From: a virus
Virus record (IMG/VR): IMGVR_UViG_3300030380_005539
Span: 1,056 to 55,485 of that record
DNA length: 54,430 bases
Direction: 5' to 3' (one strand)
Shown piece by piece: positions 5,075 through 42,564 of the stretch; position 1 is the stretch's first letter; each line of letters begins with the position of its first letter. The position numbers were made by a program, and so were the translations under genes. The notes below the pieces were generated by a model, which worked only from the letters and a program-made list of their open reading frames with translations, made no database searches and was not told the DNA's origin.

Positions 5075-5298
5075 TTTTTTATTTTTTCTATTTGTTTTGT
5101 TATTCTCATTGCTTCTTCATAGTCTTCTACTTCTAAAGCTTCTTCTAATTCTAAATCTAATTCCGTAAGGGTTTTTTCTTCTTTTTCTTCTTTAGGAAAT
5201 AATTTGTCCTTATTAATACCTATAAGGTATCCACCCCAAAAAATAAAGGTTATTGATAAAAAAATTATTAAATATTCTATTAAACTTAAATCATTCAT
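5071..5298 (-). CDS. Membrane-anchored protein with UVR-like tail
   Basis: A 75-residue protein with one hydrophobic segment at residues 8-26 (YLIIFLSITFIFWGGYLIG) and a charged cytoplasmic tail. The tail (ELEEALEVEDYEEAMRITKQ) resembles the UVR motif found in UvrB/C and in ClpC, including the central EDYEEA. The ATG overlaps the stop of the cysteine-peptidase-like gene by four bases, so translation is probably coupled. A link between the UVR-like tail and a Clp protein is speculation; the membrane segment is plain. Confidence 0.75.
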   Translation of the reverse strand: MNDLSLIEYLIIFLSITFIFWGGYLIGINKDKLFPKEEKEEKTLTELDLELEEALEVEDYEEAMRITKQIEKIKK

Positions 5299-5891
5299 TT
5301 TTTATAAAATTTATATGCACCTACTATTCTACATTTTAGTTGTTTAGAATCACAAGAATTACCTACAACTACACCGTCTATTATTGTAAATGCGTGACCT
5401 CTTACATGTATTAAATATCTCCCAATATTATATTCTTTAATAAATGTACCTACAGTCATTTGGCTGGCTCTGGTTTTACCATAGGTAGTTATAAGTGGGT
5501 AAAACTTACTATCTAATGTACGTTCTACATAACGATACTTATATTTACGATCTTCCCAAGAATAATACTTAACAGGTTTTTTAAAGGTGGTTTTATCGTG
5601 ATTTTTTAATTCTTTATACTTATAACCATTTAACGTCTTTAAACCTTCTCTTTGACTCATTGTTAATGGAAAACGTGGCGTACCTTTTCCTTTTTTTCTT
5701 TTGAATATTTTCTTAACGTAATCGTGTGCATCGTCATAAGGTGATTCTGTGACTGATGCAAACGCTCTTACACAACAATCATTATCCTCACTTTTTGCTA
5801 TTGCACTTTTAGAATAACCTACTATTGCATCATCAGTATCTATATAGGATATGTTCGTTTTGGGGTGTTTGAAAACTCTGTGTTTATTCAT
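5295..5891 (-). CDS. Cysteine-peptidase-like protein
   Basis: A 198-residue basic protein. Residues 37-60 read NDCCVRAFASVTESPYDDAH, and residues 157-173 hold GRYLIHVRGHAFTIIDG. This order, Cys near the start of a helix and a later GHA followed by Asp, is typical of papain-fold proteins common in phages and plasmids (the DCxxRA...GH pattern). Cys39 or Cys40, His166 and Asp172 would be the catalytic set. It is first in a three-gene operon with ATGA overlaps and a host-type promoter, suggesting early action on a host target. Activity is inferred from motifs only. Confidence 0.75.
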   Translation of the reverse strand: MNKHRVFKHPKTNISYIDTDDAIVGYSKSAIAKSEDNDCCVRAFASVTESPYDDAHDYVKKIFKRKKGKGTPRFPLTMSQREGLKTLNGYKYKELKNHDKTTFKKPVKYYSWEDRKYKYRYVERTLDSKFYPLITTYGKTRASQMTVGTFIKEYNIGRYLIHVRGHAFTIIDGVVVGNSCDSKQLKCRIVGAYKFYKK

Positions 5892-5955: not shown

Positions 5956-6483
5956 ATGAAACAAATTATACGTAAAATATTAAAAGAAGAGGTAACTACC
6001 CAACAAGACAACTATCAAAGGAAAATGATAGAGATATTAAAGCGTGAAGGATTCGATGCTAGAACACCCTACCAAAAAATATTAAATTATCTTAATAGTG
6101 TAATGAATATTGTTGGAATGGAGGCGTTTGAGATGTATCAATTATTTAAAGATAATGTTAGTACTATATCTAATAATCCTTTAGTAAGAAAAGACATAAA
6201 GGATAGGAAGATGAGAACTGCAAATATTAGATCTAGAGATTTAGTTATTAACAGAATACCATTTAAAGGTAATAATACACATGCAGAATATAGAAATGGT
6301 GCGTATGTGGTATTTTCTTATGGTTGGTATCCTGTATTTGTTTATAAGGATGGACAATGGTTTGAAAATGAAGAGGGTTATTCTATGTCCACTAAAAAAC
6401 AAATGAGTCAAATGAGACCATGGAATCAGGGAGAAATAATTAAAACCAATAAAGATAAATTGTGGGATATTATTAGAGGATGA
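5956..6483 (+). CDS. Short-tag cargo protein, first of three
   Basis: A 175-residue protein starting with the short tag MKQIIRKILKEE, ending in Leu-Lys-Glu-Glu. The body has a helical half followed by a beta-rich half (NGAYVVFSYGWYPVFVYKDG) that looks like a small folded domain. No family recognised. It heads a tight run of three genes (5956, 6480, 6959) with nearly identical tags and overlapping start and stop codons. An ATATTTAT element precedes it. Head packaging is inferred from the tag. Confidence 0.8.
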   Translation: MKQIIRKILKEEVTTQQDNYQRKMIEILKREGFDARTPYQKILNYLNSVMNIVGMEAFEMYQLFKDNVSTISNNPLVRKDIKDRKMRTANIRSRDLVINRIPFKGNNTHAEYRNGAYVVFSYGWYPVFVYKDGQWFENEEGYSMSTKKQMSQMRPWNQGEIIKTNKDKLWDIIRG

Positions 6484-6959
6484 AAAAATTAATTAAAAAA
6501 ATTTTAAGGGAAGAGTATAGTGAAAGGATTGAGGACTATAAAAAAATTATGTCTACACAATGGCAAGAATACTTCACTAACAAAAAAATATTACCATTAA
6601 TAATAAAATATTTAGATAGTATCATTAATATAGATATGATTGTTAAATCCGATAATTCCACAACGTATACCGTTTATTTTGATGATGTAGAACCTATCGC
6701 TAAAAATTATTGTTATGGGTGTAGTGGTACATTCCATTACCCTACAGGTACACACGACATATATAATGTAGTACATGCGGAAGATAACGATCAATTTGTT
6801 AGTGCAGTGGAGTTAGCGATAATAGATATGTTCGGTGGTGAATCAAGTGATATGGAATTTTATAGTATTATTTATCAATATTTATTTGATAGAATAAAAA
6901 AACATATGGATAATGATCCCATAAATGATTATCCTGAAGAACACGATATGGATTGGTAA
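6480..6959 (+). CDS. Short-tag cargo protein, second of three
   Basis: A 159-residue acidic protein opening MKKLIKKILREEYSE, the short tag with Leu-Arg-Glu as the possible cut site. Its ATG overlaps the stop of the previous gene (ATGA). The middle has a Cys-x-x-Cys (NYCYGCSGTFHYPTG) that may bind metal, and the end is very acidic (DNDPINDYPEEHDMDW). No known family; the three coupled genes look like a cassette of different bodies behind the same signal. Confidence 0.8.
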   Translation: MKKLIKKILREEYSERIEDYKKIMSTQWQEYFTNKKILPLIIKYLDSIINIDMIVKSDNSTTYTVYFDDVEPIAKNYCYGCSGTFHYPTGTHDIYNVVHAEDNDQFVSAVELAIIDMFGGESSDMEFYSIIYQYLFDRIKKHMDNDPINDYPEEHDMDW

Positions 6960-7837
6960 TGAAAAAATTAATTAGAAAAATATTAAAAGAGGAAACATTA
7001 AACTTTAATAAGTTTGAATTGGGCGTATTTAAAATTATCGATAAGGTTGGTATTGAAAAATTTATTGGTGAGTATCTTAGAGATATGGGTCTAGATGTTG
7101 ACGAAGAGGAAAATGTTCTTTTTGAATACTTTAATGCGTATGGTGGTGGATGTGATGACTATATTAATTTTGTATTAGAGGCAGACGAAATTTCAAATAT
7201 GTTTTACGATGGCGATTATGGTATACAAAATATGGTAAAAAGGTTTTTAGAAGATGATTATGATTATACGTATGATGGTTACGAATGTTATTATGACGAA
7301 TATCAATTAGATGATATTAATGAAGAGAACATGAAAACCATAATAAAAATATATGAATCACAAAAAGAGGAAGATGAAACCTTAAGAGAATTTATTAAAA
7401 ACGGTGATTTAGAAAGTGTGATTGGTTGTGCATATAGTGACGCACAACAAAATGCCGATATAAATGCATTACATGAAGACTTTTTAGATGGGGTACATGA
7501 AGTAACCGATAAAATAGAGGGTAAATGGGATTGGGATACCCACACATTAAAAGGTAGAATATCGGTTTGTGAGATAATGAATCATGAAGGCGCATTAGAG
7601 ATACTGTCAGAAAGTTTACAACACGGCTATGATTGGAATGAGGTCGTTGACACCATAGTTGAAAGAGAGTGGGAAGAAGTTTGGAATGGTGATGAAGGAG
7701 ATGTTTTATTTGGTGAACCAGTAGCTATAGATGAGTATAGACATTTCAGATATGGTGGTGCCGGAACAATAGATAAACAAGAATTTAATGAGTACTTAAA
7801 TAATAGATTATACGATGAGTATAGTTCTTTTATGTAA
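6959..7837 (+). CDS. Short-tag cargo protein, third of three
   Basis: I start at the ATG at 6959, which overlaps the previous stop as TAATG; a TTG six bases upstream would only add Met-Val. The 292-residue product begins MKKLIRKILKEETLNF, the short tag. The body is extremely acidic and tyrosine-rich (DDYDYTYDGYECYYDEYQ), giving a low isoelectric point, possibly a mimic of nucleic acid. Helical stretches follow (NEVVDTIVEREWEEVW). No enzyme motif. Mimicry is only a guess from composition. Confidence 0.8.
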   Translation: MKKLIRKILKEETLNFNKFELGVFKIIDKVGIEKFIGEYLRDMGLDVDEEENVLFEYFNAYGGGCDDYINFVLEADEISNMFYDGDYGIQNMVKRFLEDDYDYTYDGYECYYDEYQLDDINEENMKTIIKIYESQKEEDETLREFIKNGDLESVIGCAYSDAQQNADINALHEDFLDGVHEVTDKIEGKWDWDTHTLKGRISVCEIMNHEGALEILSESLQHGYDWNEVVDTIVEREWEEVWNGDEGDVLFGEPVAIDEYRHFRYGGAGTIDKQEFNEYLNNRLYDEYSSFM

Positions 7838-8093: not shown

Positions 8094-8963
8094 ATGAAAT
8101 CACTCATCAGAAAAATACTTAAAGAAGAAACACAACAAAGATCACTAAAGGATGTAATTTTTGATGATTTAGTTAATACATTTAACGAAGAAGTATTAAT
8201 TTATGATTGGGGACCAGAATATTATAACTGTATAAAGGCAATTAAGAATATTATTAATAATGCAGCCATACCACATATTGAGGATGTTTATAGTTTAGAC
8301 TATTTTGAAAACGAAGATTTAATTAAACCTATTTTAGATAAATTTGTTAGATATTTGTATAACGATGATTATCCAATGGTTGGGGACACCATTGAAATGA
8401 TTGAAATGGAGGGAGAAGATCCAAACCCGATACTACCGGGAACAAAGGGTGTAGTAACTAGAATAGACTCACAAGTTATTTCAGGTATACCTGAAGAACA
8501 TTTATGGATTAATTGGGAAAATGGTAGAACTTTAAAAGTTTTATTACCACATGATAAAATTAAAATAATCAAAAGAGGTGAAAGCAGTAGAGGTGTTATT
8601 GGACGATTAGAGTTAACGGAAGATAAAATAGATGATTTTGTTGATTTTGTAAGTGGTGATTTAGAATTAGATGATAACTTTACCGTAGATATTACAAATG
8701 ATTCTGACGATGTAGAAACATTGGCAAGTTACGATATTAACAATAATGAAGTAACAGTATTAGGTAAAGATAGAGCTTTACCAGATATCATTCGTTCTGT
8801 TGCACATGAATTAGTTCACCATAAACAAAATGAGAGAGGTGAATTAACAGGTAGAAAAGAAGAAGGTGAAGATGGTTCACCGTGGGAAGATGAAGCAAAT
8901 GCAAAAGCCGGAGAACTTGTTCGTAAATATGGTAGAGAGAATCCTGAAATTTATGAAACGTAA
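8094..8963 (+). CDS. Tagged zinc metallopeptidase-like protein with DUF4314-like domain
   Basis: A 289-residue protein in three parts. Residues 1-12 are the short tag MKSLIRKILKEE. Residues about 95-160 (MVGDTIEMIEMEGEDP, PGTKGVVTRID, INWENGRTLKVL) look like the SH3-like DUF4314 domain. The C-terminal domain carries HELVHH at 238-243 (HExxH) and, 25 residues on, WEDEANAKAGELV, where Glu267 is a likely third zinc ligand. This is the gluzincin-like arrangement seen in small phage and bacterial metallopeptidases. Substrate unknown. The tag suggests it is carried in the head and delivered at infection. It converges on the DUF192 gene with a 13-base overlap. Confidence 0.85.
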   Translation: MKSLIRKILKEETQQRSLKDVIFDDLVNTFNEEVLIYDWGPEYYNCIKAIKNIINNAAIPHIEDVYSLDYFENEDLIKPILDKFVRYLYNDDYPMVGDTIEMIEMEGEDPNPILPGTKGVVTRIDSQVISGIPEEHLWINWENGRTLKVLLPHDKIKIIKRGESSRGVIGRLELTEDKIDDFVDFVSGDLELDDNFTVDITNDSDDVETLASYDINNNEVTVLGKDRALPDIIRSVAHELVHHKQNERGELTGRKEEGEDGSPWEDEANAKAGELVRKYGRENPEIYET

Positions 8964-9355
8964 ATAACGTCTCCTTTATTTATATTATTTTTATCACAAA
9001 AACCACCATTAACTTCTATGTTATATTTTGACCCATCTGGTGGATATACGTTGTCACCATCAGGTTCTGCAGTAACAATGTCTAAAATAGTACCATTACT
9101 ATCACAAAAAATCATATCTAATGGAAATTTTACATTTTGCATATGGTAATATGTAGGTGACATTTCATCGAATAATATACCACAGTTTTCACACATAGAA
9201 TCCATACCTAAAACACCTGTCATTTTTTCATTCGTAGTTTTAGCATATTCGCAATCTACCCCAATTTCATTGTCATCACCATTTTTAATAATTATACTTT
9301 TTCTATTGGGAAAAGGATGTTTAACGATTTCATTTAAAATATTAATAAATTTCAT
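8951..9355 (-). CDS. DUF192 family protein
   Basis: A 134-residue protein matching the DUF192 pattern throughout: KTTNEKMTGVLGMDSM, then GILFDEMSPTYYHMQNVKFPLDMIF, then DSNGTILDI and IEVNGGFCDKNNINKGDVIYV. DUF192 proteins are small, usually exported or soluble beta proteins of unclear function that occur in many phages. No signal peptide here. The first 20 residues (MKFINILNEIVKHPF) contain Leu-Asn-Glu and could be a weak tag. An ATATTTAT element sits four bases upstream, so late expression is likely. Confidence 0.85.
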   Translation of the reverse strand: MKFINILNEIVKHPFPNRKSIIIKNGDDNEIGVDCEYAKTTNEKMTGVLGMDSMCENCGILFDEMSPTYYHMQNVKFPLDMIFCDSNGTILDIVTAEPDGDNVYPPDGSKYNIEVNGGFCDKNNINKGDVIYVS

Positions 9356-10446: not shown

Positions 10447-10461
10447 ATATTTATAAATATG
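10444..10461. promoter_or_regulatory. Bidirectional late promoter spanning both start codons
   Basis: CATATATTTATAAATATG contains ATATTTAT in both directions (10447-10454 on plus, 10460-10453 on minus). The minus-strand ATG (10446-10444) and the plus-strand ATG (10459-10461) are its two ends, only 12 bases apart. Confidence 0.55.
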
Positions 10462-11043
10462 AAAATTATTATTACAGAAAATCAGTTAAAAAAAGTAATT
10501 TTATCTGAAGGCGAGCAAGATTGGGAAAAGAAAGTAAAAGAATTTAAAAAAAGTGTCTCTGAAATAGCCAAAAAGGTGGACAATATAGGTTTAGGTAGTC
10601 CTATTGCCACTTTTTTAACCAGAATTGCAGCAACTGAGTCATGTTATGGATTAAATAAGACTAATGGTAAAAATAACGTATTTCAAGTAGATGATATTGC
10701 GTTTGATGATACTCAAGACATTAAATCACATCCCGGACTGAAGGAAAAGTTCAAAATAATAAAAGACAAAACAGGTATTAATTGGTCTGGAGAAACTTAC
10801 ACTAATATTAGGGGTGATAAGTTTAAGAATGGGATTGCCGCTAGATTATTATTGGGTAATAAACCTGGTAAGATACCCACAGATTTGAATGGACAAGCTA
10901 AATATTGGAAAAAATATTATAATACTGGATCTGGTGAAGGTGGTGAACAAGATTTTATCGATAAGAATGAAGGAGACGGTTTAGAGCACTGTATTTATTA
11001 TGGTAAAAAAGAAATAGATAAAAATAAAAAGAAAGATGGGTAG
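10459..11043 (+). CDS. Tagged lysozyme/transglycosylase-like protein
   Basis: A 194-residue protein. The tag MKIIITENQLKKVILSEGE ends in Leu-Ser-Glu. The body carries LTRIAATESCYGLNK (Glu60) followed by NVFQVDDIAF at 73-82, the Glu-Ser...Phe-Gln-Val order of lysozyme-fold transglycosylases, where the Glu is the general acid. Later parts (NGIAARLLLGNKPG and KYWKKYYNTGSGEG) fit the helical second lobe. It would cut peptidoglycan. With the tag it may enter with the DNA rather than act in lysis. The fold call is by motif only. Confidence 0.7.
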   Translation: MKIIITENQLKKVILSEGEQDWEKKVKEFKKSVSEIAKKVDNIGLGSPIATFLTRIAATESCYGLNKTNGKNNVFQVDDIAFDDTQDIKSHPGLKEKFKIIKDKTGINWSGETYTNIRGDKFKNGIAARLLLGNKPGKIPTDLNGQAKYWKKYYNTGSGEGGEQDFIDKNEGDGLEHCIYYGKKEIDKNKKKDG

Positions 11044-11323: not shown

Positions 11324-12946
11324 ATGAAATACGTAATCAGTGAAAATCAGTACACTATTCTACTTAGAGAAGATAGAGTAGACTTTTTAAGAAATCAGTT
11401 TGTAATTGATCCAAAATTATTGGATAAAGCTACTGATGGAGAGAATGAAGAAGAAGAATTTGAAGATGGTGATAGACCAGCCGGAGGTATGAGGAAATCT
11501 AAAGAAAAGATAGAACCAATACAAGGTCATGATGGTGTAGATATTGCATATATAGTAACCAATAAAAAAGGTAAAAGTAAAGTAGTTTTAACTGATGAGA
11601 TCTTTACTGATATTGTAGATGCTGATCCAACTAGAAAAAAAGAATTCGTACAATGGATGGTTACCGTATTTATGAGACATTTAAAAGATGGAGATGTTGA
11701 TCAAGCAATTAGATTTTTAACTGAAGATTTACCTGAAGCAAATGAATACTTAGAGGTATTCGATAAAGTAAGGAAGAAAAAAGTATTTAAAACAGGTGCA
11801 CCTAACAGACCAAATGCACCAGAAAACGTAAGTGATATTACACAATATAACGATTTAGCTCACCTATACTCAATAGTAAGTCCATTTATTGGTTCTGATG
11901 AGGAAGATGGTGGTTTATGGGGTAAATTAAAGAAATTTATAGATTTAGGACATGCTAAGTTAGCATATAGAGATAATGAAGTATTAGTTTACACACCTCA
12001 AACGATTGAATCAAGTTGTGAACCATTAGGTAATTTAGCATCTTGGTGTACTAGAAGAGAAGGAAATAGTTATTTTGATTCATATAGAAGAAATAACCCA
12101 AAACCTGATGGTAGTTTATCTGATTACTATGTAGTAATGCCTAAGAAGTTATTTGATGGTGATGATGAAGAATTGTATCCGTTACAATTCCATTTTGAAT
12201 CTGGACAATTACACGATAAAAATAATAGAAGTATTGAAAGGGGTGAATTACCTAATGTATTATCTAAATTTGGTGGACTAACTGATTTCTTTAAAAAGGA
12301 ATTAGGGGCATTAGCAACTGGTGACATTAGAAATGGTTCTGGTTTAATGGATAGTAAGTATTTAAATTATTTAACTAAGTTTGGTGGTAACGTTAAAGAT
12401 GTTATCGATGATGATGTATGGGAGGCAGGTGTTCAGTCAATACGTAGATTGGCTAGTGAACAACAAGGGGCACTACAAAACAACAAATATTTAAAGTGGT
12501 TGATGGAAAACACTGAAGGAGTTGTTATAACTGATTATTTAGATAGAAGTATGCAAGTATTAGATTTTAGTGATATGCAATTAACACAATTACCTGATTT
12601 ATCTGAATTTACAGAATGTAATAGGATAACTGCAAATAATTGTGGTTTAACAAGTTTACCACCTATAGATCAACTACCAAAAGGATTAGAAATTTTTACT
12701 ATAGTCGGTAACCAACTACCGGAATTTCCATTACAAGGTTATGAGATACTTACTACGTTATTTGTTGTAAATGCAGGTAAGAATCCATGGAGAAGAATTA
12801 ATGTTGATATCTTAGAACAACTATTTCAAGAAAAATTAGCTAGAGTAGTATTGGATGTTGATGTAAACAACTTAGAGCCTGACAATAGAGAAGCTTACGA
12901 AAATATGTTGACAAATAGTAGGGCTAACGGATACATGTTACAATAA
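11324..12946 (+). CDS. Tagged LRR protein with WCT-type phage domain
   Basis: A 540-residue protein. The tag is MKYVISENQYTILLRED. Residues about 190-330 hold a conserved-looking block, ESSCEPLGNLASWCTRREG with YFDSYRRNN and YYVVMPKKLF. I have seen the WCT...YF.Y...LY pattern in other phage proteins but cannot name a Pfam entry. The last part is a short leucine-rich repeat array (LDFSDMQLTQLPDLSEF, NCGLTSLPPIDQLPKGL, VGNQLPEFPL), four or so units, likely a binding surface. No catalytic residues are obvious. A tagged protein with an LRR suggests a host-interacting cargo. Own ATATTTAT element. Confidence 0.8.
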   Translation: MKYVISENQYTILLREDRVDFLRNQFVIDPKLLDKATDGENEEEEFEDGDRPAGGMRKSKEKIEPIQGHDGVDIAYIVTNKKGKSKVVLTDEIFTDIVDADPTRKKEFVQWMVTVFMRHLKDGDVDQAIRFLTEDLPEANEYLEVFDKVRKKKVFKTGAPNRPNAPENVSDITQYNDLAHLYSIVSPFIGSDEEDGGLWGKLKKFIDLGHAKLAYRDNEVLVYTPQTIESSCEPLGNLASWCTRREGNSYFDSYRRNNPKPDGSLSDYYVVMPKKLFDGDDEELYPLQFHFESGQLHDKNNRSIERGELPNVLSKFGGLTDFFKKELGALATGDIRNGSGLMDSKYLNYLTKFGGNVKDVIDDDVWEAGVQSIRRLASEQQGALQNNKYLKWLMENTEGVVITDYLDRSMQVLDFSDMQLTQLPDLSEFTECNRITANNCGLTSLPPIDQLPKGLEIFTIVGNQLPEFPLQGYEILTTLFVVNAGKNPWRRINVDILEQLFQEKLARVVLDVDVNNLEPDNREAYENMLTNSRANGYMLQ

Positions 12947-17594: not shown

Positions 17595-18227
17595 TTAGTT
17601 TTGATTAAAAACATTATAATGGAATTTAATAATTTCCCTATCAATTTCAGAGTATTCTGTAACCTCAGTCCAACTCTGCTGGAAAATACTGTCATCGTAT
17701 TTATATGAGTCATTAGGGAATCCCAAAGACTGTGTTAGTTCTTCTCTAAGTATATGTTTTGATGTTATGACATCATTTTTTAACCTAGTAGTATTAAGGA
17801 ATACTTGTGATTCCATTACATAGTTATCCCACCCTCTAACACAAAAATATCCTACATTATATTGTAAACGGTTCTTTAGTTTTTTTCTTTTCTCTGAAGT
17901 TACACCTCTATAATCTATATAATCTAAAGGTGAACCTAAGAAAATCACTAAGTTAGCCTCACCCTCATCGTCTATTATAACAACTCTAACAGTATTTATT
18001 AAATCATTTAATTCCTTAACGATACGGTTTAATTCATCATTTAATTCCTTACTAATTTCTCCTTTTACATAAATTTTTATATCATTATGAAATTTTTTGG
18101 GTGTAGTCTTACCTCCCCATTCAGTATTAGATACTATTTCTTCATAATATTCTTCTATCTCTTTTTTAGTTTGGGTATAGCTTGTGAAATTTACGATGAC
18201 TAATAATAATGTGATTAACTTTTTCAT
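17595..18227 (-). CDS. Secreted DUF2927-like protein
   Basis: A 210-residue protein with a signal peptide (MKKLITLLLVIVNFTSYTQ) almost the same as in the CAP protein. The end reads HILREELTQSLGFPNDSYKY followed by DSIFQQSWTEVTEYSEIDRE, which fits the DUF2927 pattern (RHELTQALGLxNDS), a predicted secreted metallopeptidase-like family; here the first His is replaced by Glu-Glu, so activity is doubtful. A host-type promoter suggests early export. It may act on the envelope together with the CAP protein. Family call is by eye. Confidence 0.7.
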   Translation of the reverse strand: MKKLITLLLVIVNFTSYTQTKKEIEEYYEEIVSNTEWGGKTTPKKFHNDIKIYVKGEISKELNDELNRIVKELNDLINTVRVVIIDDEGEANLVIFLGSPLDYIDYRGVTSEKRKKLKNRLQYNVGYFCVRGWDNYVMESQVFLNTTRLKNDVITSKHILREELTQSLGFPNDSYKYDDSIFQQSWTEVTEYSEIDREIIKFHYNVFNQN

Positions 18228-29325: not shown

Positions 29326-30627
29326 ATGAAAATTAAATTAACAGAATCACAACTGAAAAGAGTTTTAAATGAAATGCGTTTTGATGGTAAATCTACCGGT
29401 TTATTTTCAGAAGAAGAACATATAGACGAGGGTAGAAAGAAAAGGAGAAAAAAACGTAAATCAAGTAAACGTAAATCTAAGAAAAAGAAAAATACATTAT
29501 GTGCTAGAGGTAAGAGCGCTGCTAAGGCAAAGTTTGATGTTTATCCATCGGCTTATGCTAATGGATATGCAGTTCAAGTATGTAAAGGTAAAATAAAAGG
29601 TTTAGATGGTACTAAAAAATGTAGTGGAAGTTACTGTAGAGGAAAAAAAAATGAATCTTACGAAATAGGTGAGTTAGAAGTTGTAGAAAGGTTAGACGAA
29701 GATTTAGCCGTATGGTTCGGTACAAAAAAAAAGAAAAAAGGGGGTAAACAACCACAAGGACCATGGGTAAACATATGTAGAAAAAAGAAAGGTGGTGGAC
29801 ACCCTACATGTGGAAGAAGTGATTCAGATAAAGGAGGTTATCCTGTATGTAGAGCAAAAAGTGTTGCAGCTAATATGTCACAATCTGCAAAAGATTCAGC
29901 ATGTAGACGTAAAAGAGAAAAAGAAAAGAATGATGGTAAATCGGGTAAAGGACAATCCCCTAGCCCAATTAAAGTAAAAAATTACAAACCAAGAAAAAGA
30001 AAAAAGTCTAAAAAGAATGAATCAGTAAACATCAACAGAATGATGATTACTGAAAACAGAACAATTGTTAGTGAAGGATTAAGATATCATTTAGATAATC
30101 AAATACCTTTATCAGAAAACATTTATAGATACGGTAGTGAATCTTTTTTTAATTTAATTAATGAAGTAAGAAAATTACATAGTAGTAATAAAGTTAATTT
30201 ATCTTATTTAGATGAAGAATTACTTAAAACAGATATTGGTAGGAAAGCAGTATTTGAGGGTAAAGAAGTTTGGCTAGATATCCCAATGGAAGACAATGAA
30301 ATTTTAACTGAAGCAAAATTTAGAGGTAAGACAGTAAAGACTAGTTCTCCACAAAGAAGTTCTTCTGGTGGTAAAGCATATAGAGTATATGTAAGTGGAT
30401 GTGTTAATAAAACCAAATCCAACCCATCTGGAGTAAAACAAATTAGATTTGGTTCAGGTGGATTAAAGGCTAAGTTAAGTAATAAAGATGCTAAGAAATC
30501 CTACAACGCTAGACACGGTTGTTCTAAAGGTAGACATAACGATAAATGTAAGGCAGGATATTGGTCTTGTAGGTTACCAAGATACGCTAAGAAATTAGGA
30601 TTATCTGGTGGTGGAACATGGTGGTAA
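29326..30627 (+). CDS. Tagged, very basic protein with DUF5872-like domains
   Basis: A 433-residue protein. The tag MKIKLTESQLKRVLNEM ends in Leu-Asn-Glu. A Lys/Arg-rich stretch (KKRRKKRKSSKRKSKKKK) leads into CARGKSAAKAKFDVYPSAYA and VQVCKGKIKG, and then WVNICRKKKGGGHP with GYPVCRAK; both blocks match the DUF5872 phage family as I remember it. A third block near the C-terminus (SYNARHGCSKGRHN, YWSCRLPRYAKKL) is another Cys-containing basic domain seen in T4-like phages. Possible internal cuts occur (IVSEG, LSEN, ILTEA). The charge suggests DNA condensation in the head. Confidence 0.85.
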   Translation: MKIKLTESQLKRVLNEMRFDGKSTGLFSEEEHIDEGRKKRRKKRKSSKRKSKKKKNTLCARGKSAAKAKFDVYPSAYANGYAVQVCKGKIKGLDGTKKCSGSYCRGKKNESYEIGELEVVERLDEDLAVWFGTKKKKKGGKQPQGPWVNICRKKKGGGHPTCGRSDSDKGGYPVCRAKSVAANMSQSAKDSACRRKREKEKNDGKSGKGQSPSPIKVKNYKPRKRKKSKKNESVNINRMMITENRTIVSEGLRYHLDNQIPLSENIYRYGSESFFNLINEVRKLHSSNKVNLSYLDEELLKTDIGRKAVFEGKEVWLDIPMEDNEILTEAKFRGKTVKTSSPQRSSSGGKAYRVYVSGCVNKTKSNPSGVKQIRFGSGGLKAKLSNKDAKKSYNARHGCSKGRHNDKCKAGYWSCRLPRYAKKLGLSGGGTWW

Positions 30628-30637
30628 AAAAAAAGAT

Positions 30638-30904
30638 ATGAAAAAGATAAAATTAACAGAAAAGGATTTATTGAGAATAGTTAAGAAAACTATTAAGGAA
30701 GATAGAAAAACTGAAAATTACATGTTTTTTAGTAACCTTAAACAAATGAGAAGACAGATTGATATGATGTTGGAAAATTTAAATCCTCATTGGGTAGATT
30801 CAACATTGGCAGATGGGCACGATTGGGCAGATGATAAGATAAGTGAATCTAAAACAAATATTGATAGTGTATTCGATTTCTTTATGAATAAAAAAGAAGA
30901 GTAA
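30638..30904 (+). CDS. Tagged small protein
   Basis: I start at the ATG at 30638; the earlier ATG at 30608 lies inside the previous gene. The 88-residue product begins MKKIKLTEKDLLRIVKKTIK and continues EDRK, so Ile-Lys-Glu is the likely cut site. The remaining 65 residues are helical and acidic (RQIDMMLENLNPHWVD, SKTNIDSVFDFFMNKKEE). Stop and next start overlap (TAATG at 30904). Head cargo by tag; no other hint. Confidence 0.8.
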   Translation: MKKIKLTEKDLLRIVKKTIKEDRKTENYMFFSNLKQMRRQIDMMLENLNPHWVDSTLADGHDWADDKISESKTNIDSVFDFFMNKKEE

Positions 30905-32409: not shown

Positions 32410-33246
32410 ATGAAGATTAAATTAACAGAGGAACAATATCGTAAGTTTGTATCGGAAGATACTAACCGCACTAACTTTATGGATAAAGTTTATAAAGAAA
32501 TTGAAAATGATGATTTTGAATATGTTTGGGATTTAATAGTAAATACATATGGGTTTACTGTAGATGAAGTTATAGAAGATGAGATGTTATATCACTTATT
32601 AGGTTATAAAATGTTAGATAGAGTACGAAATTCGGGTTACTTAGGTTTTAATCCTAGACCTTATAGAAGGTATATGAATGCAATTGCAGAAAAACTTAGT
32701 GATGACGTATATGTATCCAATATCCCACCCCCACAGAAGGCAATAGAACTAAAACAAATACTTTATTTATTTGATGATTCGGTGGCAGGAAATGAAACCG
32801 TAGAAAGAATTCTATTGTCAATAGAACCCGCACTAGAATACCTTTTTAAAAATAACCCACCTAAAAAAGCAATACAATTAGCATCAATTTTATATAAAAA
32901 AATAAGGGGTATAGGTTTTGATGGGGAAATTATAAATAAAATTCATAATTTTGCAGAAAGACACGGACTAGTGCTATTCCCTAAAACTGCGGGACTAACT
33001 TTTGAGAAAAAGGATGGTATGATACAGTCACTAATAAATTACATTCAAGAAAAACCTAAGAAAACTAAAGAAGGATTTTTAAGATATATAAATTCTAGAG
33101 GTAGATCATCAGGACAACACTCAACATTTTTTAGAGCGGCAGTACATGCGGGTATTATTAAAAAAGTTAGGGATGGTAGAACAATCACTTACGAATTAGG
33201 ACCCAATTACGAAGCGTGGAAAAACGGTAATTTAGTTGCATTTTAA
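32410..33246 (+). CDS. Tagged protein with winged-helix-like end
   Basis: I start at the ATG at 32410, which opens MKIKLTEEQYRKFVSED, a tag that ends in Val-Ser-Glu, so its fit to the cut rule is imperfect. The 278-residue protein has helical middle parts and a C-terminal domain (EGFLRYINSRGRSSGQHS, FFRAAVHAGIIKKVRDG, TYELGPNYEAWKNG) like the winged-helix ends of some T4-like phage proteins. DNA binding is plausible. Last gene before the terminase unit. Confidence 0.75.
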   Translation: MKIKLTEEQYRKFVSEDTNRTNFMDKVYKEIENDDFEYVWDLIVNTYGFTVDEVIEDEMLYHLLGYKMLDRVRNSGYLGFNPRPYRRYMNAIAEKLSDDVYVSNIPPPQKAIELKQILYLFDDSVAGNETVERILLSIEPALEYLFKNNPPKKAIQLASILYKKIRGIGFDGEIINKIHNFAERHGLVLFPKTAGLTFEKKDGMIQSLINYIQEKPKKTKEGFLRYINSRGRSSGQHSTFFRAAVHAGIIKKVRDGRTITYELGPNYEAWKNGNLVAF

Positions 33247-38478: not shown

Positions 38479-39168
38479 ATGGAAATTTTAAAAAACAATG
38501 AGTTAAATAAAAAAGGTATCTTAGTAGAATATGATGCGGGATACATCTCTCCTAAAGATAATAGACACTTCATTAATGAAATAAATAAACTAACTAAAGG
38601 TGGACAAATAGTCGAAGATCCTTTAGTTGTTTATGCAGTAATGCAAAAATATGGTGTGGAGAATAGAAATGGTAGAGTATATCCTGAAAAGATACTTAAA
38701 AAAGAATCTGAAAACTATATGAAACTTATTGAAGAAAAAAGGGCTATGGGTGAGGCAGACCATCCAGATTCTTCAATTGTTGCTATTAGTAGAATTTCTC
38801 ATAACGTAACTGAACTATGGTGGGAAGGTAATGTGCTAATGGGTAAATTAGAAATCATTATGTCACCAGGATTTGTTACACAAGGTATTATATCATGTGA
38901 AGGAGATCAAGTTGCTAACCTTTTAAGAAAAGGTTTAAAGATAGGTGTATCATCTAGAGGTGTAGGTTCATTAAAAAAAGAAGATGGTAAAAACATTGTA
39001 CAAGATGACTTCGAATTAATATGTTGGGATGTAGTTACTTCACCATCAACACCAGGATCTTGGATATATAATGAATCACCTTCCAAAGAACAACAAATGT
39101 CCGAATCTAAAGAAAATAAAGATAAAGATTTATTAATTGATTCTTTAGATAATTTTTTGTCAGATTAA
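38479..39168 (+). CDS. gp21: Prohead protease (gp21-like, S77 type)
   Basis: A 229-residue serine protease. VVYAVMQKYGVENRNGRVYP opens the fold, GEADHPDSS places the catalytic His at 95, and LKIGVSSRGVGS places the nucleophile at Ser158 or Ser159, with Asp184 in ICWDVVTSPS. This is the His-Ser order of T4 gp21 and herpesvirus-like assemblins. It cuts after Glu in Leu/Ile-x-Glu sites in scaffold, capsid and internal proteins. That rule explains the ends of the tags in this window. It lies just upstream of the gp22- and gp23-like genes, as in T4. Confidence 0.95.
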   Translation: MEILKNNELNKKGILVEYDAGYISPKDNRHFINEINKLTKGGQIVEDPLVVYAVMQKYGVENRNGRVYPEKILKKESENYMKLIEEKRAMGEADHPDSSIVAISRISHNVTELWWEGNVLMGKLEIIMSPGFVTQGIISCEGDQVANLLRKGLKIGVSSRGVGSLKKEDGKNIVQDDFELICWDVVTSPSTPGSWIYNESPSKEQQMSESKENKDKDLLIDSLDNFLSD

Positions 39169-40821: not shown

Positions 40822-42564
40822 ATGGGACATTTATTAAATTCAGGTGAAGTTGGAAATATCGGACTTGAACACTTGAAGCAAATTAGATCTAAAACCATCG
40901 GAAAATGGGATTCTTTAGGATTCTTAGAAGGTTTAAAAGGTCACGTAAAAGAGAACATCGCTCAGTTATACGAAAACCAAGCTTCAGCTTTATTGACAGA
41001 AGCAACAGATGCTCAATCGTCTGGTTCTTTCGAAACTGTAGTTTTCCCTATCGTAAGAAGGGTATTCTCAAAATTATTGGCTAACGATATCGTATCGGTA
41101 CAGGCGATGAACATGCCAATTGGAAAATTATTCTACTTTGTACCAAAAACAACTGGAAGAAATCACAATCCTTTAAATGGTAATGCTGAAAACGGTTCTT
41201 TACCAGAATGTGTATTTAGTTCTTGTAGTGGAAATGCCGTTTCAGAATTCTTACAAAAATCATTATATGATGTATTCTATAATGATGGTATGTTTGATGC
41301 ATCTAAAGGTACTGCTACAATTTTTGAATCTACCGCTTATGGTGTTATTGTAAGTGCAAACGGTGAAACTGTTGTTACTGCATTTGACGATCAACCAGCT
41401 GCTGCTGATGGATCAGTTAGAAATCTTACAATGTGTGTATCAGGATTTACATCTGCTGGAGCTGGAAGATTAACTGGACCTGACGGAAACGAAATGGATA
41501 CAGAATCTTTCTTATCTTCATTAAGAATTGTTGCTGATGTTGATATCGTAGACGGTGATGGTGAAGTTATTATCACTGCTGGTGATTCAATTCCATTTAA
41601 CTTAACTGCACAAGTATACGGTAAAGGTATCGTTAATTATGATGATATCTGTGATCCACAAGGATGTTTAATGTTAACTGCAGACTTATCTCACCCAGCG
41701 TGTGTTAGTTGTAATGCAGGTACATTCGATGGTTATATCGGAGCAGTAACAGGAACTAATCCTACAATTACTGCATCTTGGATGCAATATGCAACTTTAG
41801 AATTTGCAACTGAAATGGGAGAAGTTTCTTTCGAACTTGATGAAGTAGTTGTTTCGGTAACTGAAAGAAAATTAAGAGCAACTTGGTCTCCAGAATTAGC
41901 ACAAGACGTTAGTGCATTCCATAACATTGATGCTGAAGCTGAATTAACGGCTTTATTATCTGAGCAAGTAGCAGCTGAAATCGACAGGGAAATCCTTAGA
42001 GATTTAAGATCTGGTGCAGCTTGGACATTAAGATGGGATTACAACGGATGGAAAAGAGCTAATAATGGTGGTGGATTTAACGCATACACTCAGAAAGAGT
42101 GGAATCAGACGTTAATCACTAGAATTAACCAATTATCTGCACAAATTCATAAATCAACTCTAAGAGGTGGTGCTAACTTTATCGTAGTTTCTTCTGAAGC
42201 TTCTGCGATATTTGATGATTTAGAATACTTCCACGTATCTAACGCAGCACCAGAGCAAGATCAGTACAATATGGGTATTGAGAAGATTGGTTCATTAGGA
42301 GGAAGATACACTGTATATAGAGATCCTTACGCACCAGCTAACTCAATCATTGTTGGACACAAAGGAAAGTCATTATTGGACACTGGGTACATTTATGCAC
42401 CTTACGTACCATTACAATTGACTCCTACGTTACAAAACCCATTCAACTTTGCACCAACTAAGGGTATCATGACTAGATACGCTAAGAAAATGGTTAATAA
42501 CCGTTTCTACGCAACGTTGACAATTGATGGAGTTGTAACATTTGATGTTAACTTATTAAGATAA
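40822..42564 (+). CDS. gp23: Major capsid protein (gp23-like)
   Basis: A 580-residue HK97-fold capsid protein. The start (MGHLLNSGEVGNIGLEHLKQ) and ENIAQLYENQASALLTEATD to SFETVVFPIVRRVFSKLLAN match gp23 proteins. LLTE-A at 57-61 sits where T4 gp23 is cut (after residue 65), so the first 60 residues are the propeptide. Later landmarks are MPIGKLFYFVPKTTGR, EIDREILRDLRSGAAW, YNMGIEKIGSLGGRYTVYRD and RYAKKMVNNRFYATL. C-ending codons (AAC, ATC, TTC, TAC) are clearly more frequent than in neighbours, as expected for the most abundant protein. It is co-transcribed with the scaffold. Confidence 0.97.
   Translation: MGHLLNSGEVGNIGLEHLKQIRSKTIGKWDSLGFLEGLKGHVKENIAQLYENQASALLTEATDAQSSGSFETVVFPIVRRVFSKLLANDIVSVQAMNMPIGKLFYFVPKTTGRNHNPLNGNAENGSLPECVFSSCSGNAVSEFLQKSLYDVFYNDGMFDASKGTATIFESTAYGVIVSANGETVVTAFDDQPAAADGSVRNLTMCVSGFTSAGAGRLTGPDGNEMDTESFLSSLRIVADVDIVDGDGEVIITAGDSIPFNLTAQVYGKGIVNYDDICDPQGCLMLTADLSHPACVSCNAGTFDGYIGAVTGTNPTITASWMQYATLEFATEMGEVSFELDEVVVSVTERKLRATWSPELAQDVSAFHNIDAEAELTALLSEQVAAEIDREILRDLRSGAAWTLRWDYNGWKRANNGGGFNAYTQKEWNQTLITRINQLSAQIHKSTLRGGANFIVVSSEASAIFDDLEYFHVSNAAPEQDQYNMGIEKIGSLGGRYTVYRDPYAPANSIIVGHKGKSLLDTGYIYAPYVPLQLTPTLQNPFNFAPTKGIMTRYAKKMVNNRFYATLTIDGVVTFDVNLLR

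Follow-up and report, generated by a model that had tools for sequence, protein, structure and literature searches.

Gene locus and protein architecture

The stretch of DNA analyzed here (the window) is 54,430 bases long and corresponds to bases 1056 to 55485 of an IMG/VR virus record, IMGVR_UViG_3300030380_005539, that totals 127,027 bases. The open reading frame at 8094-8963 on the plus strand, which starts with ATG at 8094 and encodes 289 residues, is a genuine gene. Its product is composed of four parts, all encoded on the plus strand: an N-terminal tag, MKSLIRKILKEE (residues 1 to 12; 8094-8129), predicted from its sequence to be a capsid-targeting propeptide and carrying L-K-E at residues 9 to 11; a helical region (residues 14 to 88; 8133-8357), modeled by AF2 as helices with block pLDDT values of 57 to 70; a DUF4314 domain (residues 92 to 159; 8367-8570), an SH3/KOW-like beta barrel according to Pfam PF14192 and AF2; and a C-terminal metallopeptidase domain with a gluzincin layout (residues 171 to 289; 8604-8960), defined by AF2, fold matches, and the family alignment.

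These parts evolve at different rates. Comparing the window gene with its relative at locus L004, the helical region was the fastest-evolving part (dN/dS of about 0.40), followed by DUF4314 (about 0.27) and the peptidase domain (dN of 0.059, dS of 0.579, and dN/dS of about 0.10). The last ratio indicates that the peptidase domain is under strong purifying selection and is not a chance motif.

The preliminary description of this gene proposed a DUF4314-like, SH3-like middle domain, and both parts of that proposal hold. PF14192 scored 33.8 bits over residues 92 to 159, against a gathering cutoff of 27, and a separate, confident AF2 model of residues 86 to 165, built on 17 rows, is a five-stranded barrel with a mean pLDDT of 84. 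The best fold matches of this domain were the Spt5 KOW domain (Z of 8.0, 62 residues aligned), PetP, the NusG KOW domain, and the tudor domains of UvrD/PcrA. RNA polymerase and nucleic acid are common binding partners of KOW and tudor barrels; since small barrels match many things, this likeness is a lead only.

The peptidase gene and a DUF192 gene on the minus strand (8951-9355; E of 1.6e-19) converge and overlap at their 3' ends, and the close relatives that we examined likewise have a gene in a similar position after the peptidase gene. Elsewhere in the window, a DUF2927 protein is encoded at 17595-18227 on the minus strand (E of 6.2e-20); its start resembles a signal peptide, and its sequence includes HILREELTQSLG. 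The protein encoded at 5295-5891, also on the minus strand, had no Pfam match; the spacing of NDCCVRAF ... GHAF ... GN in its sequence suggests a papain-like cysteine protease fold.

Conservation and fold of the peptidase domain

The motif HELVHH at residues 238 to 243, on which the preliminary description was founded, is present, its codons beginning at 8805. HELVH (residues 238 to 242; 8805-8819) lies on a helix spanning residues 229 to 247, with H238 and H242 as predicted zinc ligands and E239 as the predicted general base. The glutamate that had been placed 25 residues farther on is E267, counted from H242, and E265 follows H242 by 23 residues. Both belong to the sequence E265-D-E267 (8886-8894), on a helix spanning residues 263 to 282, and one or the other is the predicted third zinc ligand. 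E265 may be the likelier of the two, since E265 together with N269, four residues on, resembles the ExxxD/N arrangement of gluzincins. An alignment of 49 diverse viral relatives, numbered as the window protein and including a Flavobacterium phage copy within a 907-residue protein, revealed ten invariant positions: R227, D231, R234, H238, E239, H242, Q245, E265, E267, and A268.

No peptidase model in Pfam and no NCBIfam model of any kind matched the window protein, a sequence search of the PDB returned nothing credible (a match to 1wir at an E of 0.018 falls outside the peptidase domain), and profile searches of the PDB with the domain gave no match in one case and only projannalysin, at an E of 0.12, in another. 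The metallopeptidase fold that had been proposed was recovered with confidence by AF2 from a 48-row alignment, with block pLDDT values of 76 at residues 171 to 180 and 88 to 98 over residues 181 to 289. The model has a helix at 167-190, strands at 197-201, 211-214, and 219-223, the HExxH helix, and the helix that bears E265 and E267. This is the layout of the zincin core of phage MPTase domains, which consists of three strands, an HExxH helix, and a Glu helix (PMC5512222).

The nearest solved folds were Spartan (6mdx, Z of 9.0), the YbeY-family protein AQ_1354 (1oz9, 8.7), Wss1 (8.6), IrrE (3dte, 7.5), selecase (7.4), abylysin (7.2), ArdC (5.9), and CapP (5.8); Foldseek alone ranked minigluzincins first (4qhi, 4jiu, and 4jix), at a best E of 0.025. 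These fold scores are modest; Z values of 6 to 9 pick no single family, and motifs discriminate better. Spartan, Wss1, and YbeY each use an additional zinc histidine. SprT/Spartan and Wss1 were ruled out on this ground, as no downstream histidine is conserved in the 49 members and only the adjacent H243 is nearly invariant. YbeY was ruled out because H-x3-H-x5-H is absent, there being no histidine six residues after H242 in HELVHHKQNERG. Since these third-histidine motifs are absent and the glutamate pair is conserved, the domain reads as a gluzincin, and both features of that group are present, HExxH on a helix and a downstream helix with an invariant glutamate. The best reading is that of an active gluzincin-type zinc peptidase, which would bind zinc and cleave proteins.

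Two known groups come close to the domain. Minigluzincins (abylysin, jannalysin, and selecase) provided the top Foldseek matches and, with projannalysin, the top profile match, and they share its size of about 110 residues; unlike the window domain they are archaeal and cellular, with 13 to 20% identity to it and E values that are not significant. Peptidase_M78/IrrE proteins have the same HExxH and Glu helix, whereas the window protein has no HTH or sensor domain. Membership in Peptidase_M78 (PF06114) was rejected, as the window domain gave no match at an E of 0.01 and the full protein none at an E of 10; eight of the 49 relatives touched that profile weakly (E of <0.01). The structural match to IrrE (rmsd of 3.1 over 87 aligned residues) is tied with those to other zincins, and the annotation "IrrE N-terminal-like" is attached to two of the predicted phage structures nearest to the domain. 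An IrrE-like protein of Synechococcus phage S-SCSM1 (224373-224705), untagged and not listed as a virion protein, matches only weakly in structure, and we did not count it as evidence.

Distribution of the family and exchange of modules

Scanning viral contigs with the whole protein gave ten loci, and a profile of the peptidase domain matched at least 550 viral loci. Among 84,980 bacterial and archaeal genomes, the same profile had one match, on a 63,985-base contig of a Prochlorococcus single-cell assembly. That contig (L095; QCKH01000009.1; recorded as Prochlorococcus sp. AG-409-L21) carries a gene closely related to the window gene and is as long as the IMG/VR phage contig of L004, so it is apparently phage DNA in the single-cell assembly. 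The family is, on these searches, restricted to phages, and the records that carry it mostly also encode an S77 prohead protease.

The N-terminal modules of these proteins are exchanged. Loci L005 to L011 retain the tag and the peptidase domain (57 to 64% identical) and have another middle module in place of the DUF4314 part. At locus L017 the corresponding parts are split between two genes, one encoding a 164-residue protein of tag, helical region, and DUF4314 that is 70% identical to window residues 1 to 161, and the other a tagged peptidase of 359 residues with an N-terminal module related to those in L005 and L009. This arrangement implies that the window protein combines two modules that are separate tagged proteins elsewhere. 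Distant relatives include standalone domains of 122 to 135 residues and the 907-residue protein of Flavobacterium phage immuto, in which the peptidase domain is joined to NMNAT-like domains. Large proteins of the polyvalent type were also observed: those at L074 (2987-6913; 1,309 residues) and L085 (3377-6853) carry peptidase, zeta-toxin, NMNAT-like, and DUF6321 domains, and that at L035 (63-1838) carries a peptidase and a zeta-toxin kinase.

The N-terminal tag and T4-type head machinery

The short tag reported in the preliminary description was confirmed as MKSLIRKILKEE at the N terminus, with a motif common to five open reading frames of the record. This motif, I[RK][KNH]I[LI][KR]EE, was found in 5 of 115 open reading frames, always starting at residues 5 to 7 and never internally. 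Three of the genes that share it, each with an unknown body, lie on the plus strand upstream of the peptidase gene: MKQIIRKILKEE (5956-6483), MKKLIKKILREE (6480-6959), and MKKLIRKILKEE (6959-7837). The prohead protease gp21 of T4 cleaves after L/I-x-E (PMC9026906), a site that L9-K10-E11 of the tag fits, and the first 10 residues of the T4 protein IPIII are enough for packaging (PMC9026906). More broadly, [LI]xE occurred within residues 7 to 20 of 32 of the 93 record open reading frames considered, compared with a frequency of 15.4% in internal windows (P = 5e-6).

The record encodes the machinery that such a tag would call for. A prohead protease of the Peptidase_S77 (T4 gp21) family, the expected remover of the tag, is encoded at 38479-39168 (plus strand; PF03420, E of 1.6e-25), and a major capsid protein of the gp23 family is encoded at 40822-42564 (plus strand; PF07068, E of 2.2e-72); a T4-type terminase is also present in the record. 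The phage is a T4-like marine phage with a T4-type head. An S77 protease is likewise encoded in the record of L004, and across the family it scored above the cutoff in 38 of the 46 records with the peptidase domain, several of the other eight being fragments. The contrast with control records carrying DUF4314, where S77 was found in 4 of 26, is only indicative because record lengths differ between the two sets. A regular expression for the tag matched 28 of 41 relatives and 129 of 373 neighboring open reading frames (P = 6e-5), a difference that we do not rely on, as it is inflated by matches lying inside the first helix of the domain itself. Relatives without a clear LxE tag include the S-SRM01 copy and most of the 122-residue class (MGFLNDDKK...).

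Mass spectrometry of cyanophage virions offers a parallel. NMNAT-like proteins were detected in virions of S-SCSM1 (PMC9602691) and S-CREM2 (PMC10665884), and these proteins begin MKSFLQFLKEA and MKNFSSFLTEA, respectively. The authors of the virion studies allowed that such proteins might be carried over through CsCl purification. None of the 30 nonvirion S-SCSM1 proteins that we inspected has a MKxFxxFLxE start, and the peptidase of Synechococcus phage B23, which begins MNYKQFLRES, follows the same pattern as the virion NMNAT tags. The mass spectrometric evidence covers the NMNAT proteins, not the peptidase: we found no virion proteome for the phage of this record or for any phage that encodes a related domain, and no virion proteomics paper for the immuto phages, B23, or S-SRM01. 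The virion NMNAT-like proteins share with the window protein the LxE tag, and their domain type is elsewhere fused to the peptidase domain; they differ in being another enzyme, and the peptidase domain was not found in those cyanophage proteins. Delivery from the head, as the preliminary description had it, thereby gains support of an indirect kind, from the tag, the S77 gene in the genome, the co-occurrence with S77, and the LxE-tagged virion proteins. The S-CREM2 virion list, from a T4-like cyanophage, also includes a reported CRISPR-Cas9 nuclease and SAM hydrolase (PMC10665884).

A second type of tag (MKIK...LTESQLKRVLxE / ITENQLKKVILSE) heads many proteins with unrelated bodies, encoded in the window at 612-1007, 10459-11043, 11324-12946, 29326-30627, 30638-30904, and 32410-33246, and past its end at 106808-107218 in window numbering (G000:C1:107863-108273). 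The two tag types, this one and the KILKEE type, may between them label a dozen or more injected proteins. The tagged protein at 10459-11043 contains a lysozyme-like stretch (AATESCYG...NVFQVD) and had no Pfam match. In the records of L006, L007, and L008 (G004 to G006), a 632-residue open frame matches Peptidase_S77 twice, once above the cutoff and once below it, and may be a duplicated prohead protease.

Alternative explanations

The peptidase might act during assembly or on phage proteins, such as itself, a tagged head protein, or a remnant of the scaffold, and be packaged as a passenger only. Autoprocessing has been proposed as a main role of phage zincin domains by Iyer et al. in 2017 (PMC5512222), such a role has been suggested for the zincin domain of P1 DdrB and for those of some polyvalent proteins, and self-cleavage is sensible where the domain sits in large chains, as at L074 and L085 and in immuto. 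However, many relatives are 122 to 135 residues long and have nothing to release, an S77 protease is already present to remove the tag of the window protein, and the DUF4314 part at L017 is an uncleaved protein with its own gene. We regard this explanation as unlikely, and the small size of so many relatives makes host targets likelier than self-processing, to which the precedent of polyvalent proteins and the large fusions still lend some probability. The tag, for its part, could be an N-terminal helix that these proteins share for some other role (membrane contact, chaperone binding, or a recombination seam), heading an ordinary intracellular peptidase; some relatives are untagged and tagged genes occur outside the head cassette. 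We think this rather improbable given the LxE end of the tag, S77 in the genome, the LxE-tagged virion proteins detected by mass spectrometry, and the enrichment of N-terminal [LI]xE in the record (P = 5e-6).

Other explanations concern the activity of the domain. One would make it a protease that protects DNA, of the kind of Spartan, Wss1, and IrrE, removing or cleaving proteins bound to phage DNA as it enters, or else a host regulator akin to a repressor, and not attacking host proteins at large. This is brought to mind by the nearest solved folds, among them Spartan, Wss1, IrrE/PprI, the plasmid antirestriction protein ArdC, and CapP, by the KOW/tudor-like barrel of DUF4314, and by the weak contact of 8 of 49 members with the M78 (IrrE) profile. 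Fold scores of 6 to 9 do not separate these families, the third histidine typical of Spartan and Wss1 is lacking, and so is a match of the window domain to M78; we doubt this explanation too, as much as we doubt a role in assembly. One of the best fold matches (1oz9, Z of 8.7) is to the endoribonuclease YbeY, and the domain could bind metal yet be no peptidase, as a hydrolase of the YbeY kind or a structural relic; with the three-histidine motif of YbeY absent and HExxH and both glutamates invariant, this is very improbable.

Proposed model for a head-delivered peptidase

It is an evenly balanced proposition, in our judgment, that the protein is packaged in the head by means of a T4-type targeting sequence, injected, and active as a gluzincin that cleaves, most likely, a host protein. 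Head targeting and action on the host are modeled here on T4. During assembly of the T4-type prohead, the tag helix would bind its scaffold core; the S77 protease would cut after LKE (residue 11) within the prohead, and the mature protein of 278 residues would stay with the DNA in the head and travel with it into the cell. Once inside, the C-terminal domain would hold zinc on H238, H242, and a downstream glutamate, with water activated by E239, and would cleave one or a few proteins, most likely of the host, that are picked or held by the swappable N-terminal module (here, the helical region and DUF4314; in relatives, another module). Immediate action on host proteins, as the preliminary description had it, would be one possibility, beside action on a phage protein, on the peptidase itself, or on another substrate.

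That phage zincin domains are predicted to enter the host is already known (PMC5512222). The zincins of polyvalent proteins described there have the same core, are phage-borne and modular, and are predicted to accompany the DNA into the host, and the large multidomain relatives with NMNAT and zeta-toxin domains are like them. In contrast, the window protein is small, has a T4-type tag, and matches no Pfam peptidase model. Of combined domains it has DUF4314 and the peptidase only. The text of that study, which has 12 clades, names neither NMNAT, zeta toxin, nor cyanophages. An HExxH motif is also found in the N4 vRNAP (PMC12633501). Internal head proteins of T4 and Alt resemble the window protein in having a short N-terminal helix that ends in L/I-x-E, and here too S77 and gp23 are encoded in the genome; they differ in cargo, which in the window protein is a predicted metallopeptidase and not an ADP-ribosyltransferase or IP protein. 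We found no report in the open-access literature of a capsid-targeted peptidase in T4-type heads or of this peptidase family.

Ejection of T4 DNA brings many protein molecules along with it, few of which, to our knowledge, have a known enzymology, and the best studied of them modify (Alt) or inhibit (IPI) host factors and do not cut them. We tentatively suggest, at somewhat short of even confidence, that T4-like phages employ capsid targeting to deliver a dedicated, phage-only gluzincin family as infection begins, the target being set by N-terminal modules that can be exchanged. If true, this would be a class of head-injected protease effectors, parallel to the Alt and IP proteins, and would add irreversible proteolysis to the injected toolkit of T4-type phages. 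The family would provide concrete, testable candidates in environmental phages, and the logic of tag plus S77 is a route to predicting injected proteins from sequence.
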